DNA from: Verrucomicrobium sp. BvORR106
GTDB lineage: Bacteria > Verrucomicrobiota > Verrucomicrobiia > Verrucomicrobiales > Verrucomicrobiaceae
Assembly: GCF_000739655.1 (NCBI RefSeq)
Contig: NZ_BATR01000179.1
Location: 1 to 36,832, forward strand
Length of the DNA: 36,832 bases
Direction of reading: 5' to 3'
Shown: in pieces, positions 11,739-14,927 of the stretch
Layout: the number at the start of each line of letters is the position of its first letter
Position numbering within the stretch: position 1 is the stretch's first letter
Notes under the pieces: generated by a model
What the model saw: the letters and a program-made list of their open reading frames with translations, nothing else
What the model was told of the DNA's origin: nothing
Database searches by the model: none
Made by a program: the position numbers and the translations under genes

Positions 11739-13244
11739 TCAGGATTGCGGAAGAGCTGGCGCGGCGGCTTCCTGGGTCTCGGGCTTGGATTGGTCTTCCA
11801 GCCGGGAGATGGCGCGAAACTCCTTGAACATACGGAAGCCCAGATAGGCCACCAGAATGACCACCACGGCGAAGGTCACCTTGAAATAGAAGTCCAGCGG
11901 CGTGCCATCCGTTCCGCCCTCCATGTAGGCAAACAAGGCACTGGACGGAAACGGCGCAAGCCACCGGTAGGCAACTTCCTTGGTCACCCCAGGAGTGCCT
12001 GCCACGATGGAGGCAATGGCGAACAGCAGGCCAAAGAGAGCCTGAATCAGCACATAGAGCCAGATCGGCTGGCGAACGCGAGGGAAGAGGAGCAGCACCG
12101 GCAGCGGGCAGATGGCGGAGGCATAGACCAGCACAAAGGTCACGATCAGCTCCATCTGTTTCAGGTCGGTCAGGCCGGACCCGGCTGTCACCGAAATCTG
12201 GTAGACAGCATTGAACTGCGCGAGATACAAAATGCCCGTAAAGAGCAGGGCCGTCGCCCACCCGGGATAGAGCACCCGGCCGGCCATCCGGCCCAGAAAA
12301 CCCCGGCGCGTCCATGACGCATAGAGGCTGGGCAGGCGCACCGTGTGCTCACACAGCGCCTCCAGAATGATCCAGCCCCAGATGGGCGTGCACAGTAAGA
12401 ACCACATTCCCGCCACATCCTCGTGCATGGTATAGGCCAGCACATTGGCCACGGCCGCCATGCCCAGGGCCGTCATCCGTTTCCGCGCCGAATGGTTCTC
12501 GGAAACAGGAGCGATGCGTGTGGCCGCGATCTCCAGCAACAGATACACATACAACCCCACCATCGTCGCGATCAGCCACACCGGAGGCCCACTGCCAGAA
12601 GCGCTGGCGAAAAAGAAAAACCCTCTGGAAAACAAGCTACCGACCCCGACGGAAAACATAAAGGGAAGAAACAGCACCAGCGCGATGATGCGGAACACCA
12701 TCGGAGCACTGGAAAGCGCCACTGTGAAAGCAGTGAAGACAAAAGAAACCGCCACCATGATGGCAATGACGGACAGATCATCCACCACGTTCACCTGCCC
12801 GAAGAAGTAACGCAGCACGGCATATGGCAGCACCGCCGCCACCAGCAACAACGACTGCGCCACCAGCGCCACCCACTTGCCCAGCACAATGCGGAAGGCA
12901 CTCATCCGCGTGAGCTGCACCAGGTCCAGCGTGTTTGCCTTCACCTCATCGCTCACCGCCATGAGCCCCCGCGCCGGCATGAGCACCAGCAGAGGAATCC
13001 AGACGAAAGCCCAGAAAAACCCGTCAAACCCCACCATCGCCCCCCGCGATGCTCCATTGGCCAGCGCCAGCAGTTGCATACCCACCAGCAACGTCATCAC
13101 CACCTGCACCAGAATGAAGATGGAAATAAACGCCTTCGTCTTCAGCCCCTGCCGCAGCTCCTTCACTAGGATGGGACTGAGCCAGTCTGAGAAGTCGGGG
13201 GGAGGTAGGGTGTGGGTGGGGGCTGTTGTGGCAGGTGAGGACAT
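11739..13244 (-). CDS. ABC transporter permease, ABC-2 type
   Basis: A 501-residue integral membrane protein with roughly ten to twelve hydrophobic segments. It opens with the pattern typical of ABC-2 permeases: a short cytoplasmic tail, then FSDWLSPILVKELRQGLKTKAF (key residues LVKELRQ) before the first helix. A cytoplasmic SDEVKANTLDLVQLTRMSAFRIVLGKW stretch is the usual contact region for the ATPase. It pairs with the ATPase at 13786-14850 on the same strand. The two genes are now about 540 bp apart because a repeat-bracketed four-helix-bundle gene lies between them. The substrate cannot be read from sequence; GldF-like and other exporter permeases share this layout. Confidence 0.88.
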   Translation of the reverse strand: MSSPATTAPTHTLPPPDFSDWLSPILVKELRQGLKTKAFISIFILVQVVMTLLVGMQLLALANGASRGAMVGFDGFFWAFVWIPLLVLMPARGLMAVSDEVKANTLDLVQLTRMSAFRIVLGKWVALVAQSLLLVAAVLPYAVLRYFFGQVNVVDDLSVIAIMVAVSFVFTAFTVALSSAPMVFRIIALVLFLPFMFSVGVGSLFSRGFFFFASASGSGPPVWLIATMVGLYVYLLLEIAATRIAPVSENHSARKRMTALGMAAVANVLAYTMHEDVAGMWFLLCTPIWGWIILEALCEHTVRLPSLYASWTRRGFLGRMAGRVLYPGWATALLFTGILYLAQFNAVYQISVTAGSGLTDLKQMELIVTFVLVYASAICPLPVLLLFPRVRQPIWLYVLIQALFGLLFAIASIVAGTPGVTKEVAYRWLAPFPSSALFAYMEGGTDGTPLDFYFKVTFAVVVILVAYLGFRMFKEFRAISRLEDQSKPETQEAAAPALPQS

Positions 13245-13281
13245 GGGGAGTCAGGGAGCAGAAGTTCAGTGCGTCAGTGGG

Positions 13282-13775
13282 CGGTGCGTCAGTGCGTCAG
13301 TTTTCGTTGCGCGGGGGCGGCAGACAGAAGCGAAGGTGGTTTGAGATCATGGTGCCCAGCATGCGGCCGAGCTCGCGGCATTCTGCCGCGACGGTTTCAC
13401 AGTCGGCCTTGTTCAGGTATTTGCAGGAGTAGGCCGTGCGCAGCCAATGCATCGTTTCTTGGAGTTCACCATCGGAGTCAGTCAGTTTGCTGAGGAAATG
13501 AGCCTCGTAGCGCCGCTTCGACCAGGCCTCTGCGATGTTAGCTCCAATAGCCCGTGAACTCCGACGCACCTGATCAGTGAGAGAGTACTTTTCCTCCGGT
13601 GGAAAAGTCAGGGTCAGCTTGAACACGTCCTGTTGAAACCGAAAACAACGTTTGTAGAGCTCCAGATCGCGATAAGACCTGGCCAGCGGCTTCCGCCCCT
13701 GTTTTTCACTCTCAAATTCCTCAGCCATGTCTCTATCTCCTTTCATAACCTCCCCCTTGACGCACTGACGCACCG
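13282..13775. mobile_element. Putative inserted cassette: four-helix-bundle gene between 18-bp inverted repeats
   Basis: The sequence CGGTGCGTCAGTGCGTCA at 13282-13299 is the exact reverse complement of 13758-13775. Between them lies a single small gene. Both arms are two 8-bp TGCGTCAG-type units, with further degenerate units outside (from about 13267 on the left and to about 13785 on the right). The unit splits an ABC ATPase/permease gene pair, the ATPase stop being only about 10 bp away. No transposase is present, so movement would need help in trans. Calling it mobile is inference; the repeats are directly seen. Confidence 0.5.
13297..13728 (-). CDS. Four-helix-bundle protein, 23S rRNA-intervening-sequence-protein family
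   Basis: A 143-residue soluble helical protein. The ATG at 13728 is chosen because AAAGGAG lies 8 nt upstream on the minus strand, a strong ribosome binding site; earlier in-frame codons run into the repeat. Family motifs are clear: YRDLELYKRCFRFQQDVF, then FPPEEKYSLTDQVRRSSRAIGANIAEAWSKRR (key residues LTDQVRRSSRAI.ANIAE), and a final helix before a short basic tail. Related proteins were first found in intervening sequences of bacterial 23S rRNA genes; their biochemical role is not settled, and nucleic-acid binding is only a hypothesis. The TGA stop (13297-13299) is the end of the left inverted repeat. It interrupts an ABC transporter operon, which suggests insertion. Confidence 0.9.
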   Translation of the reverse strand: MAEEFESEKQGRKPLARSYRDLELYKRCFRFQQDVFKLTLTFPPEEKYSLTDQVRRSSRAIGANIAEAWSKRRYEAHFLSKLTDSDGELQETMHWLRTAYSCKYLNKADCETVAAECRELGRMLGTMISNHLRFCLPPPRNEN

Positions 13776-13785
13776 ACGAACTGAC

Positions 13786-14850
13786 TTACTGTTTTTTCAG
13801 CATATCCACAAACGCATCCTCCAGCCGCCGGACCTCGCGGTGGAACTCCACGACCGGGATGCCTTCGTTGACCATTTTCTTCAGGCCGGCGGCGAGGAGG
13901 TTGAGGTCGTCACTGGCTACAGCGAGGCGGGCACCGTCGCGGCGTTGTTCGACCAGGCTCCAGCCGGGGTTCATGCCAGCCCAGAGATGGAGTTCCTCCA
14001 CCTTGCCGAGCACGGTGATGTCGACCATAAGCTGGGAGTCACCGTTGCTGGCGCGACCGGCCCCGCGTCGGAGGGTTTCCGCAGCCCCGTGATACACGAG
14101 TTTGCCACCGTCGATGAAAAGCAGCGTGTCGCACATCTCCCCCAGCTCACTCAGAATGTGGCTGCTGATGAAGAGGGTCTTGCCACGCTGGGCCAGGAGA
14201 CGGACGAGGTTCTTGAACTCCAGCCGTGCCTTGGGATCCAATCCCGCGGCCGGTTCATCCAGGATCATGAACTCCGGATCCGGCAGCAGCATGCGACCGA
14301 AGCAGAGGCGCTGGCCCATGCCCTTGCTCAGCTTGTTCATCGGACGGTCTGCGAGTACCAGAAGGTCGGCAAAGTCCATGACCTCCTCCACGCGGGCGCG
14401 GCGCTCGGCACGCTTGAAACCATAGGCGCGGGCAAAGAAATCAAGGTACTCGTACACCGTCATGCAGGAGTAGGTGCCGTAGTGGTCCGGCATCCAGCCG
14501 ATGAGACGACGCACCTTCTCGGGCCGGTCCATCACATTCACACCCGCCACTTTCACCATGCCGCTGGTGGGAGAGTCCAGCGTGGCCATGATCCGCATGG
14601 TCGTGGTCTTCCCAGCGCCGTTGGCACCGATGAACCCCACCACCTGCCCACGGTGGATGTCGAAGTTGAGATCCTTCACCGCATGCACGTTGTCGAACAC
14701 CCGGTGCAGATGCCGGACCTCCACCAGAGTCGCTGGCAGTGGAGGAGGTGGCGCGATGGAGCGGGCCGGGGATGGAGCAGGAGATGCCGGTGAAGACGCA
14801 GCGGCCTGCGGCGGTTCGATCTCGGGTGGAGCGGCAGAAGGAGTGTCCAT
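13786..14850 (-). CDS. ABC transporter ATP-binding protein
   Basis: A 354-residue ATPase starting at ATG 14850; a TTG at 14898 is a weaker alternative. The first about 40 residues are a Pro/Ala/Ser-rich, probably disordered tail, unusual for this family. The ATPase core is complete: Walker A GANGAGKT (75-82), signature LSKGMGQR (174-181), Walker B FMILDEP (194-200) and switch His231. The C-terminal about 90 residues form an accessory domain that ends in LEDAFVDMLKKQ, as in exporters of the ABC-2/CcmA/GldA group. It energises the permease at 11739-13244. It starts 77 nt after the upstream membrane-protein gene in the same cluster. The substrate is unknown. Confidence 0.93.
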   Translation of the reverse strand: MDTPSAAPPEIEPPQAAASSPASPAPSPARSIAPPPPLPATLVEVRHLHRVFDNVHAVKDLNFDIHRGQVVGFIGANGAGKTTTMRIMATLDSPTSGMVKVAGVNVMDRPEKVRRLIGWMPDHYGTYSCMTVYEYLDFFARAYGFKRAERRARVEEVMDFADLLVLADRPMNKLSKGMGQRLCFGRMLLPDPEFMILDEPAAGLDPKARLEFKNLVRLLAQRGKTLFISSHILSELGEMCDTLLFIDGGKLVYHGAAETLRRGAGRASNGDSQLMVDITVLGKVEELHLWAGMNPGWSLVEQRRDGARLAVASDDLNLLAAGLKKMVNEGIPVVEFHREVRRLEDAFVDMLKKQ

Positions 14851-14927
14851 GATGACGAAACAGGCTGGGGATGGAATGGAATCGGTGGGGCGGTTCAATG
14901 AAGCAACGGCGCCCCTCCGGCGGTGAG

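Follow-up and report, generated by a model that had tools for sequence, protein, structure and literature searches.

What is a small gene bracketed by perfect inverted repeats doing between two genes of a transporter? The question is raised by a window of 36,832 nucleotides from Verrucomicrobium sp. BvORR106 (contig NZ_BATR01000179.1), by which we mean the whole stretch of DNA that was analysed. The initial annotation described an 18-bp inverted repeat enclosing a single four-helix-bundle gene, with the stop codon of the gene inside the repeat and an AAAGGAG site in front of it, and these observations are confirmed. The repeat is exact (13282-13299 and 13758-13775, with a spacing of 458 nt) and forms the core of longer, imperfect arms built from 7-8-nt units. 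The arm on the permease side (13267-13300, plus strand) is made of the units GTGCGTCA and GTGGGCG and holds the TGA stop codon (13297-13299) of the four-helix gene. The arm on the ATPase side (about 13757-13791, minus strand) is an inverted copy with diverged outer units, and the stop codon of the ATPase gene (13786-13788) lies in its outer portion. The only gene between the repeats, preceded by AAAGGAG ahead of its ATG, is a minus-strand CDS (13297-13728, 143 aa) belonging to PF05635/TIGR02436. The upstream neighbour is an ABC transporter ATPase by family match (13786-14898, minus strand). The downstream neighbour is a membrane protein ORF (11739-13244, minus strand) that is permease-like only, its TIGR03518 match being weak and far below the cut-off.

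The resulting cassette is roughly half a kilobase long, with the four-helix gene as its sole cargo. It has the terminal inverted repeats of an insertion sequence or DNA transposon and, with one open gene, the coding capacity that a MITE by definition lacks. It sits between the ATPase and the permease-like gene and not in a 23S rRNA helix. Rfam returned nothing at gathering score in the window. Elsewhere in the window, positions 120-196 and 1690-1893 resemble the arm pair of L066, a repeat scattered through the genomes G000, G001, and G003.

Scanned without its first codon, the window protein matches PF05635 (E 7.5e-30) and TIGR02436 (E 7.9e-30). The profile matches of the gene are confined to PF05635, bAvd-like, and related NCBIfam models; profile searches found in it no transposase, nuclease, or reverse transcriptase domain and no catalytic family. 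Having no transposase family match, it falls outside both the recognised transposases and the Y1 HUH transposases. AlphaFold predicts four helices for the 106-residue core (mean pLDDT 95.4). The folds closest to this model are 2gsc and 2rld, followed by Avd (4dwl), with a TM of 0.83 against 4dwl and 0.85 against the DGR ribonucleoprotein 8ub8. Residues Q34, E48, and E72 are unchanged across 16 diverse family members. PF05635 was found in 33 of the 38 relatives examined and in none of 14 named control genomes. Two of the PF05635 genes, L011 and L070, each have one in-frame stop and are probably decaying copies. Avd-like by its predicted fold, the four-helix protein is the leading suspect as the mover of the cassette.

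The window's genome (8.69 Mb in 209 contigs) contains the 18-mer 16 times and the same pattern read backwards not once, which argues that the repeat is not due to chance. Arms that occur mostly without a four-helix gene would, by the initial annotation, speak against a cassette, and in part this is the case: none of the other 14 of the 16 matches is within 1 kb of a PF05635 match of the genome, so the arm sequence of the window occurs mostly without such a gene. C183 is the only contig that these 14 have in common with the PF05635 matches, and the two are about 15 kb apart there. The doubled unit GTGCGTCA has 103 overlapping matches in the genome, 32 places by count of the listing. Of 20 array-bearing stretches that were read, L049, L050, L053, L063, and L066 have convergent pairs, as the window does, and L061 has a divergent one. 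In L049, L050, L053, and L066 there is no recognised gene between the convergent arms, the ORFs of L049 reaching 169 aa. Empty sites were sought for two of these pairs and none was found: G001 has L050 in the corresponding position, and G003 has L066, as does G001 with a shorter array. In L063 (4270-5450), the convergent GTGCGTCA arms surround an ORF that by eye resembles an ABC ATPase, and other repeat types (AAGACAC-like and GGTTGAGGC-like) are nested within them.

Arms around PF05635 genes were scored by aligning the 250 bp on the left with the reverse-complemented 250 bp on the right, and a score of at least 20 was taken as the mark. The mark is a statistical one, and some alignments extend into adjoining coding DNA (e.g., L178 and L195). 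Regions 700-950 bp out served as far-flank controls at loci that were long enough. The window's genome has 10 PF05635 matches, nine of them above the family cut-off, and inverted arms are present at eight of the 10. The units at these eight loci are AGTGAAA, GGTGCTT, AAGACAC, GTGCGTCA, GGTAAGT, the longer GGTTGAGGCGCTTC, GAATTAG, and AAACTTC. The remaining two loci are L016 (score 16, arrays mainly direct) and L018 (score 13, below cut-off).

The same arrangement is found well beyond this genome. In the window's own family and order, 101 of 121 loci score at least 20, against 1 of 111 far flanks and 11 of 121 loci aligned in direct orientation; the 121 contain orthologous cassettes and are therefore not all independent. 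A scan of named genomes yielded at least 580 confirmed candidates, and the best 80 of these form a multi-phylum set in which 61 of 80 score at least 20, against 1 of 72 far flanks and 15 of 80 in direct orientation. By their record titles, the loci above the mark among the best 80 of at least 580 include members of Acidobacteria, Bacteroidetes genera, Planctomycetales, Nitrospirae, Clostridia, Proteobacteria, Kiritimatiellaeota, Elusimicrobia, and Candidatus Nomurabacteria. Scores below 20 were obtained at 20 of the 121 Verrucomicrobial loci and at 19 of the best 80 of at least 580. The enrichment at PF05635 genes over far flanks has a Fisher p of about 6e-44 and 3e-24 in the two sets, whose loci are partly orthologous and not fully independent. 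ATPase loci of relatives gave 0 of 25, cassette-bearing ones and one short one being left out, and random positions gave 53 of 3000. The latter were drawn from the window and from stretches picked for arrays, so this background is probably overstated. The cassette architecture thus occurs in many phyla.

The best arm cores have a median outer-edge span of 508 bp. A period of 7 or 14 fits best in 72 of 101 Verrucomicrobial loci and one of 8 or 15 in 17; for the 61 multi-phylum loci (from the best 80 of at least 580) the corresponding numbers are 44 and 15. The strand that runs inward has more G than C in 98 Verrucomicrobial loci against 8, with 1 tie (score at least 18), and in 56 against 3, with 2 ties, in the set of the best 80 of at least 580. 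In 89 of 101 loci an arm's own partner outscores all non-orthologous arms, indicating that the ends of a cassette match one another and follow no common consensus. A single repeat read by a single transposase is disfavoured, the repeats being private to each locus.

The direction of the cassette gene was also compared with that of its neighbours, which were taken as the longest open frames and are approximate. Both neighbours are co-directional at 76 of 121 Verrucomicrobial loci and at 49 of 79 multi-phylum loci (from the best 80 of at least 580). Between co-directional neighbours the cassette gene points the same way in 59 cases against 17 in the former set and in 47 against 2 in the latter (best 80 of at least 580). 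The neighbours are opposed at 40 of 121 and 23 of 79 loci (the latter again from the best 80 of at least 580), the remainder being uncallable. Cassettes between co-directional genes thus prefer the same direction, and this bias fits a dependence on read-through transcription or on an RNA step.

Is the window copy a recent arrival? The view that the cassette splits the transporter operon, taken as a recent event, had to be given up. At the window's junction (site A), a cassette is present in G000, G001, and G003, three species of the genus, and in G007, which belongs to another genus. A recent insertion in the window lineage is ruled out, since the same junction is filled in four genomes and two genera, and the copy is old. 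An empty ATPase-permease junction, which had been looked for among close relatives, does exist: it was read in G004, G014, G008, G009, and G018, the genomes whose junction was read among the other relatives with this ATPase. Divergence is too great for any target duplication to be told from these empty sites. As the window cassette is old and stable, whether it affects the transporter genes is a matter of its own. The arms at junction A are GTGCGTCA in G000, GTGGGCA in G001 and G003, and GTGAATCA-like in G007. Retention of the gene with diverged repeats was to count against a cassette, and in part this is what is seen, as three of the relatives have different arms. However, the two sides change their repeats together, and identical repeats would have been less informative.

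In the set of loci that were compared, eleven junctions (A-K) are filled in two or more genomes, and at such fixed sites joint change of the gene and both arms was seen. In sister species, the genes can be 61-72% identical in nucleotides and the arms different, with flanks 87-97% identical, and identity falls sharply where the intergenic space begins and ends. Conserved genes have conserved arms. At site E, G003 and G001 have flanks that are 96 and 95% identical, genes that are 64% identical, and unrelated arms, whereas G000 and G003, with flanks 95 and 92% identical, have genes that are 95% identical and near-identical arms. Site C, which we take to be ilvB-ilvN and which is empty in G004, behaves in the same way. 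In sites A, B, and F, the diverged arms retain some common letters or units, and in sites D, H, I, and K the genes are 74-80% identical and the arms recognisably similar. Site B, presumably an RND efflux operon, has a scar-like copy in L210 (G001:C183), where one arm and the first codons are left of what is a whole cassette in G000 and G003.

In the gene tree, alleles cluster by site at the nine of eleven sites for which the tree is usable; two rows (L011 and L243) are so distant that they look misread, and sites D and E are left out for this reason. A single clade of the G000, G001, and G003 alleles of site C is not rejected (p-AU 0.235 for protein and 0.244 for DNA). No donor was found for the changed cassettes, the alleles clustering by site. 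One pair of loci from two genera, L085 and L258, match in the cassette only (75.8% over 364 nt), with similar arm units. The clustering by site and this single cassette-only pair indicate that movement to new sites is rare in Verrucomicrobia. Direct repeats of 5 bp outside the arms are in no clear excess in Verrucomicrobia (17 of 84, against a mean of 11 and a maximum of 18 after shuffling).

Insertion could be read in cyanobacterial plasmids. At site P1, the empty plasmids that were read (L354-L356) have AAAAAGTAATTAAC, and the filled ones (L340 and L350) have AAAAAGTAAT, the cassette, and then GTAATTAAC, i.e., GTAAT is duplicated on the two sides of the cassette. The record of L341 is 100% identical to L340, and the empty plasmids are 97.3-97.7% identical to L340 over the aligned parts. 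Ten records had at least 80% query coverage: three filled, six shorter by the cassette (of which three were read), and L357, where the cassette seems to be truncated. At site P4, TTCTA is present on both sides of the cassette but only once in pNsp_c, a plasmid of that strain, and a G next to the cassette is missing from the filled copy. The plasmid pNsp_c itself holds another cassette at site P5, with TAATG and TTATG at its sides (4 of 5 letters alike). The P1 and P4 cassettes, 423 and 413 bp long, are identical in 322 of 423 aligned columns and have unrelated flanks. No clean target duplication was found at P2, P3, P6, and P7, which leaves 5-bp duplications at two sites only, and at P2 (L359) there are arms without a gene. 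Altogether, 31 matching records gave 16 plasmid loci, some of them mutual copies, and 13 of the 16 score at least 20 against 1 of 16 far flanks. Inverted arms are absent from L343 and L344, L351 is just below the mark at 19, and a score of 27 was obtained for the far flanks of L347 as well. Two plasmid sites thus show cassettes that inserted whole and duplicated 5 bp of the target, and the filled and empty sites indicate that the cassette is mobile. The suggestion of a small mobile cassette therefore survives as to its insertion character, through the plasmid relatives, but the copy in the window is old. Some of the plasmid PF05635 genes lie within cas operons, between cas6 and cas4 in L345 and L347 and between cas10 and cmr3 in L351. 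PF05635 proteins in cas loci also appear in excerpts of published work (PMC3936711; PMC10910872), and insertions into cas operons likely explain this CRISPR association of the family.

The arms, the fixed sites, and the plasmid insertions are most simply accounted for by a mobile cassette that recognises its ends by a logic of its own. We consider it probable that the cassette in the window belongs to a widespread family of mobile elements of about 0.4-0.55 kb with a single gene, ordered as arm, PF05635 gene, and inverted arm, whose protein recognises the paired arms and helps copying or insertion. The arms are runs of degenerate 7-8-nt units, private to a copy and common to its two ends. The four-helix protein may recognise them when paired, by structure and repeat register instead of a fixed sequence, and the form recognised could be hairpin DNA or RNA. 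In that case it may assist copying or insertion of the cassette, possibly together with an enzyme of the host or one acting in trans. Intervening sequences (IVS) of 23S rRNA that encode a PF05635 protein would be copies that landed in rRNA, and arms without a gene would be non-autonomous derivatives. In a bolder version, which we offer tentatively and would not bet on, PF05635 proteins would be what moves the smallest of all autonomous transposons. These Avd-like proteins of about 120 residues would use structure and register, and not sequence, to read the paired heptad arms; they would bring about insertion with duplication of 5 bp and keep the drifting ends alike. Heptameric repeats that lack an explanation in numerous bacterial genomes would originate from them, as would the intervening sequences of 23S rRNA. 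We know of no smaller autonomous transposon.

The arms could instead be maintained because, as RNA, they form a stem by which the cassette is looped out of a polycistronic message and which RNase III cuts, insertion being incidental and the protein acting on its own RNA. The arms of the window cassette do pair as RNA in both the minimum-energy and the centroid folds (z -4.74), the same-direction bias between co-directional neighbours is as such an element would have it, and excerpts of a study of the Coxiella IVS describe heptads before the ORF and a 28-bp terminal stem that RNase III cuts in vitro (PMC4990558). However, two species differ at site K in their 5' arms and have identical 3' arms, so changes in the arms are not always compensated. 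Arm sequences that are wholly different between genomes at sites C and E also speak against it, and both the arm pairs without a gene and the duplicated targets in DNA suggest events at the DNA level. We regard the RNA reading as possible but doubtful. That the cassette is a MITE-like passenger, moved by an unrelated enzyme while the four-helix protein serves something else, would agree with the lack of a matched catalytic domain in the gene, with the arm pairs at L050, L066, L053, and L359 that have no PF05635 gene, and with the distance of 14 of the 16 18-mer matches from such genes. This we think unlikely: an unrelated transposase is expected to require one end sequence, and one protein family is found between such arms in many phyla in spite of their differing ends.

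A different kind of objection is that nothing was exchanged at the fixed sites, gene and arms having diverged in place under a locally raised mutation rate, for example by error-prone copying as in Avd-assisted retroelements, with hairpin template switching keeping the arms alike. The clustering of alleles by site, the unrejected single clade at site C, and the sharp boundaries of divergence at the cassette are in its favour. However, the divergence is not clock-like, since at site E, with flanks alike in both comparisons, the gene is nearly unchanged between G000 and G003 and much changed between G001 and G003. Divergence in place is accordingly an improbable explanation in our estimate. Ordinary simple-sequence repeats, that is, 8-nt slippage arrays that came to lie beside the gene by chance, are hardly credible: GTGCGTCA arrays are indeed common in the genome, but the enrichment around PF05635 genes over far flanks and the locus-private matching of the arms contradict such an origin, as do the controls.

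The cassette, as the preferred reading has it, resembles several known systems without coinciding with any. REP sequences are short palindromes, and RAYT is a Y1 HUH transposase; heptameric short tandem repeats of cyanobacteria are known as STRR. The cassette is like REP/RAYT in having a gene between inverted repeats that also occur scattered without the gene, and differs in having no Y1 HUH transposase and in ends that are not REP-type short palindromes. The 23S rRNA IVS of Coxiella and Leptospira, with its S23p/IVP ORF, has in common with the cassette a PF05635-family protein, a single ORF, and complementary, stem-forming ends. The excerpts on Coxiella describe a 428-nt IVS whose ends form a stem and whose ORF, of this kind, has heptads GACAGAT ahead of its start codon (PMC4990558). 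In contrast, the window cassette is between protein genes and not in rRNA, and cassette ends are private repeat arrays, with target duplication in plasmid relatives. Heptameric repeats share the 7-nt units: excerpts describe GGGAATC repeats of Xanthomonas, with 70 and 75 close convergent pairs, which is the cassette geometry (PMC4692102), and direct TAACTGA heptads of Beggiatoaceae (PMC4679880), although a link to PF05635 is absent from these excerpted descriptions. The PF05635 structure 2gsc (Xcc0516) comes from Xanthomonas campestris. Excerpted work also treats PF05635 proteins as Avd-like (PMC10053308). The window protein shares its fold with Avd of diversity-generating retroelements but is below the Avd equivalog cut-off. 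Among the literature matches listed, with preprints and most subscription papers outside the coverage, PF05635 genes were not found tied to inverted heptad arms.

The hypothesis would assign a function to a widespread protein family that is named after a special case in rRNA. The cassettes, each with its private repeat ends, have the look of very small jumping DNA, and mobile ends without a fixed sequence would pose a new recognition problem. The presence of filled and empty plasmids in culturable cyanobacteria makes the hypothesis testable. If it is true, the association of PF05635 with cas loci would have a simple reason, namely insertion there, and the origin of a class of bacterial short tandem repeats would be explained.
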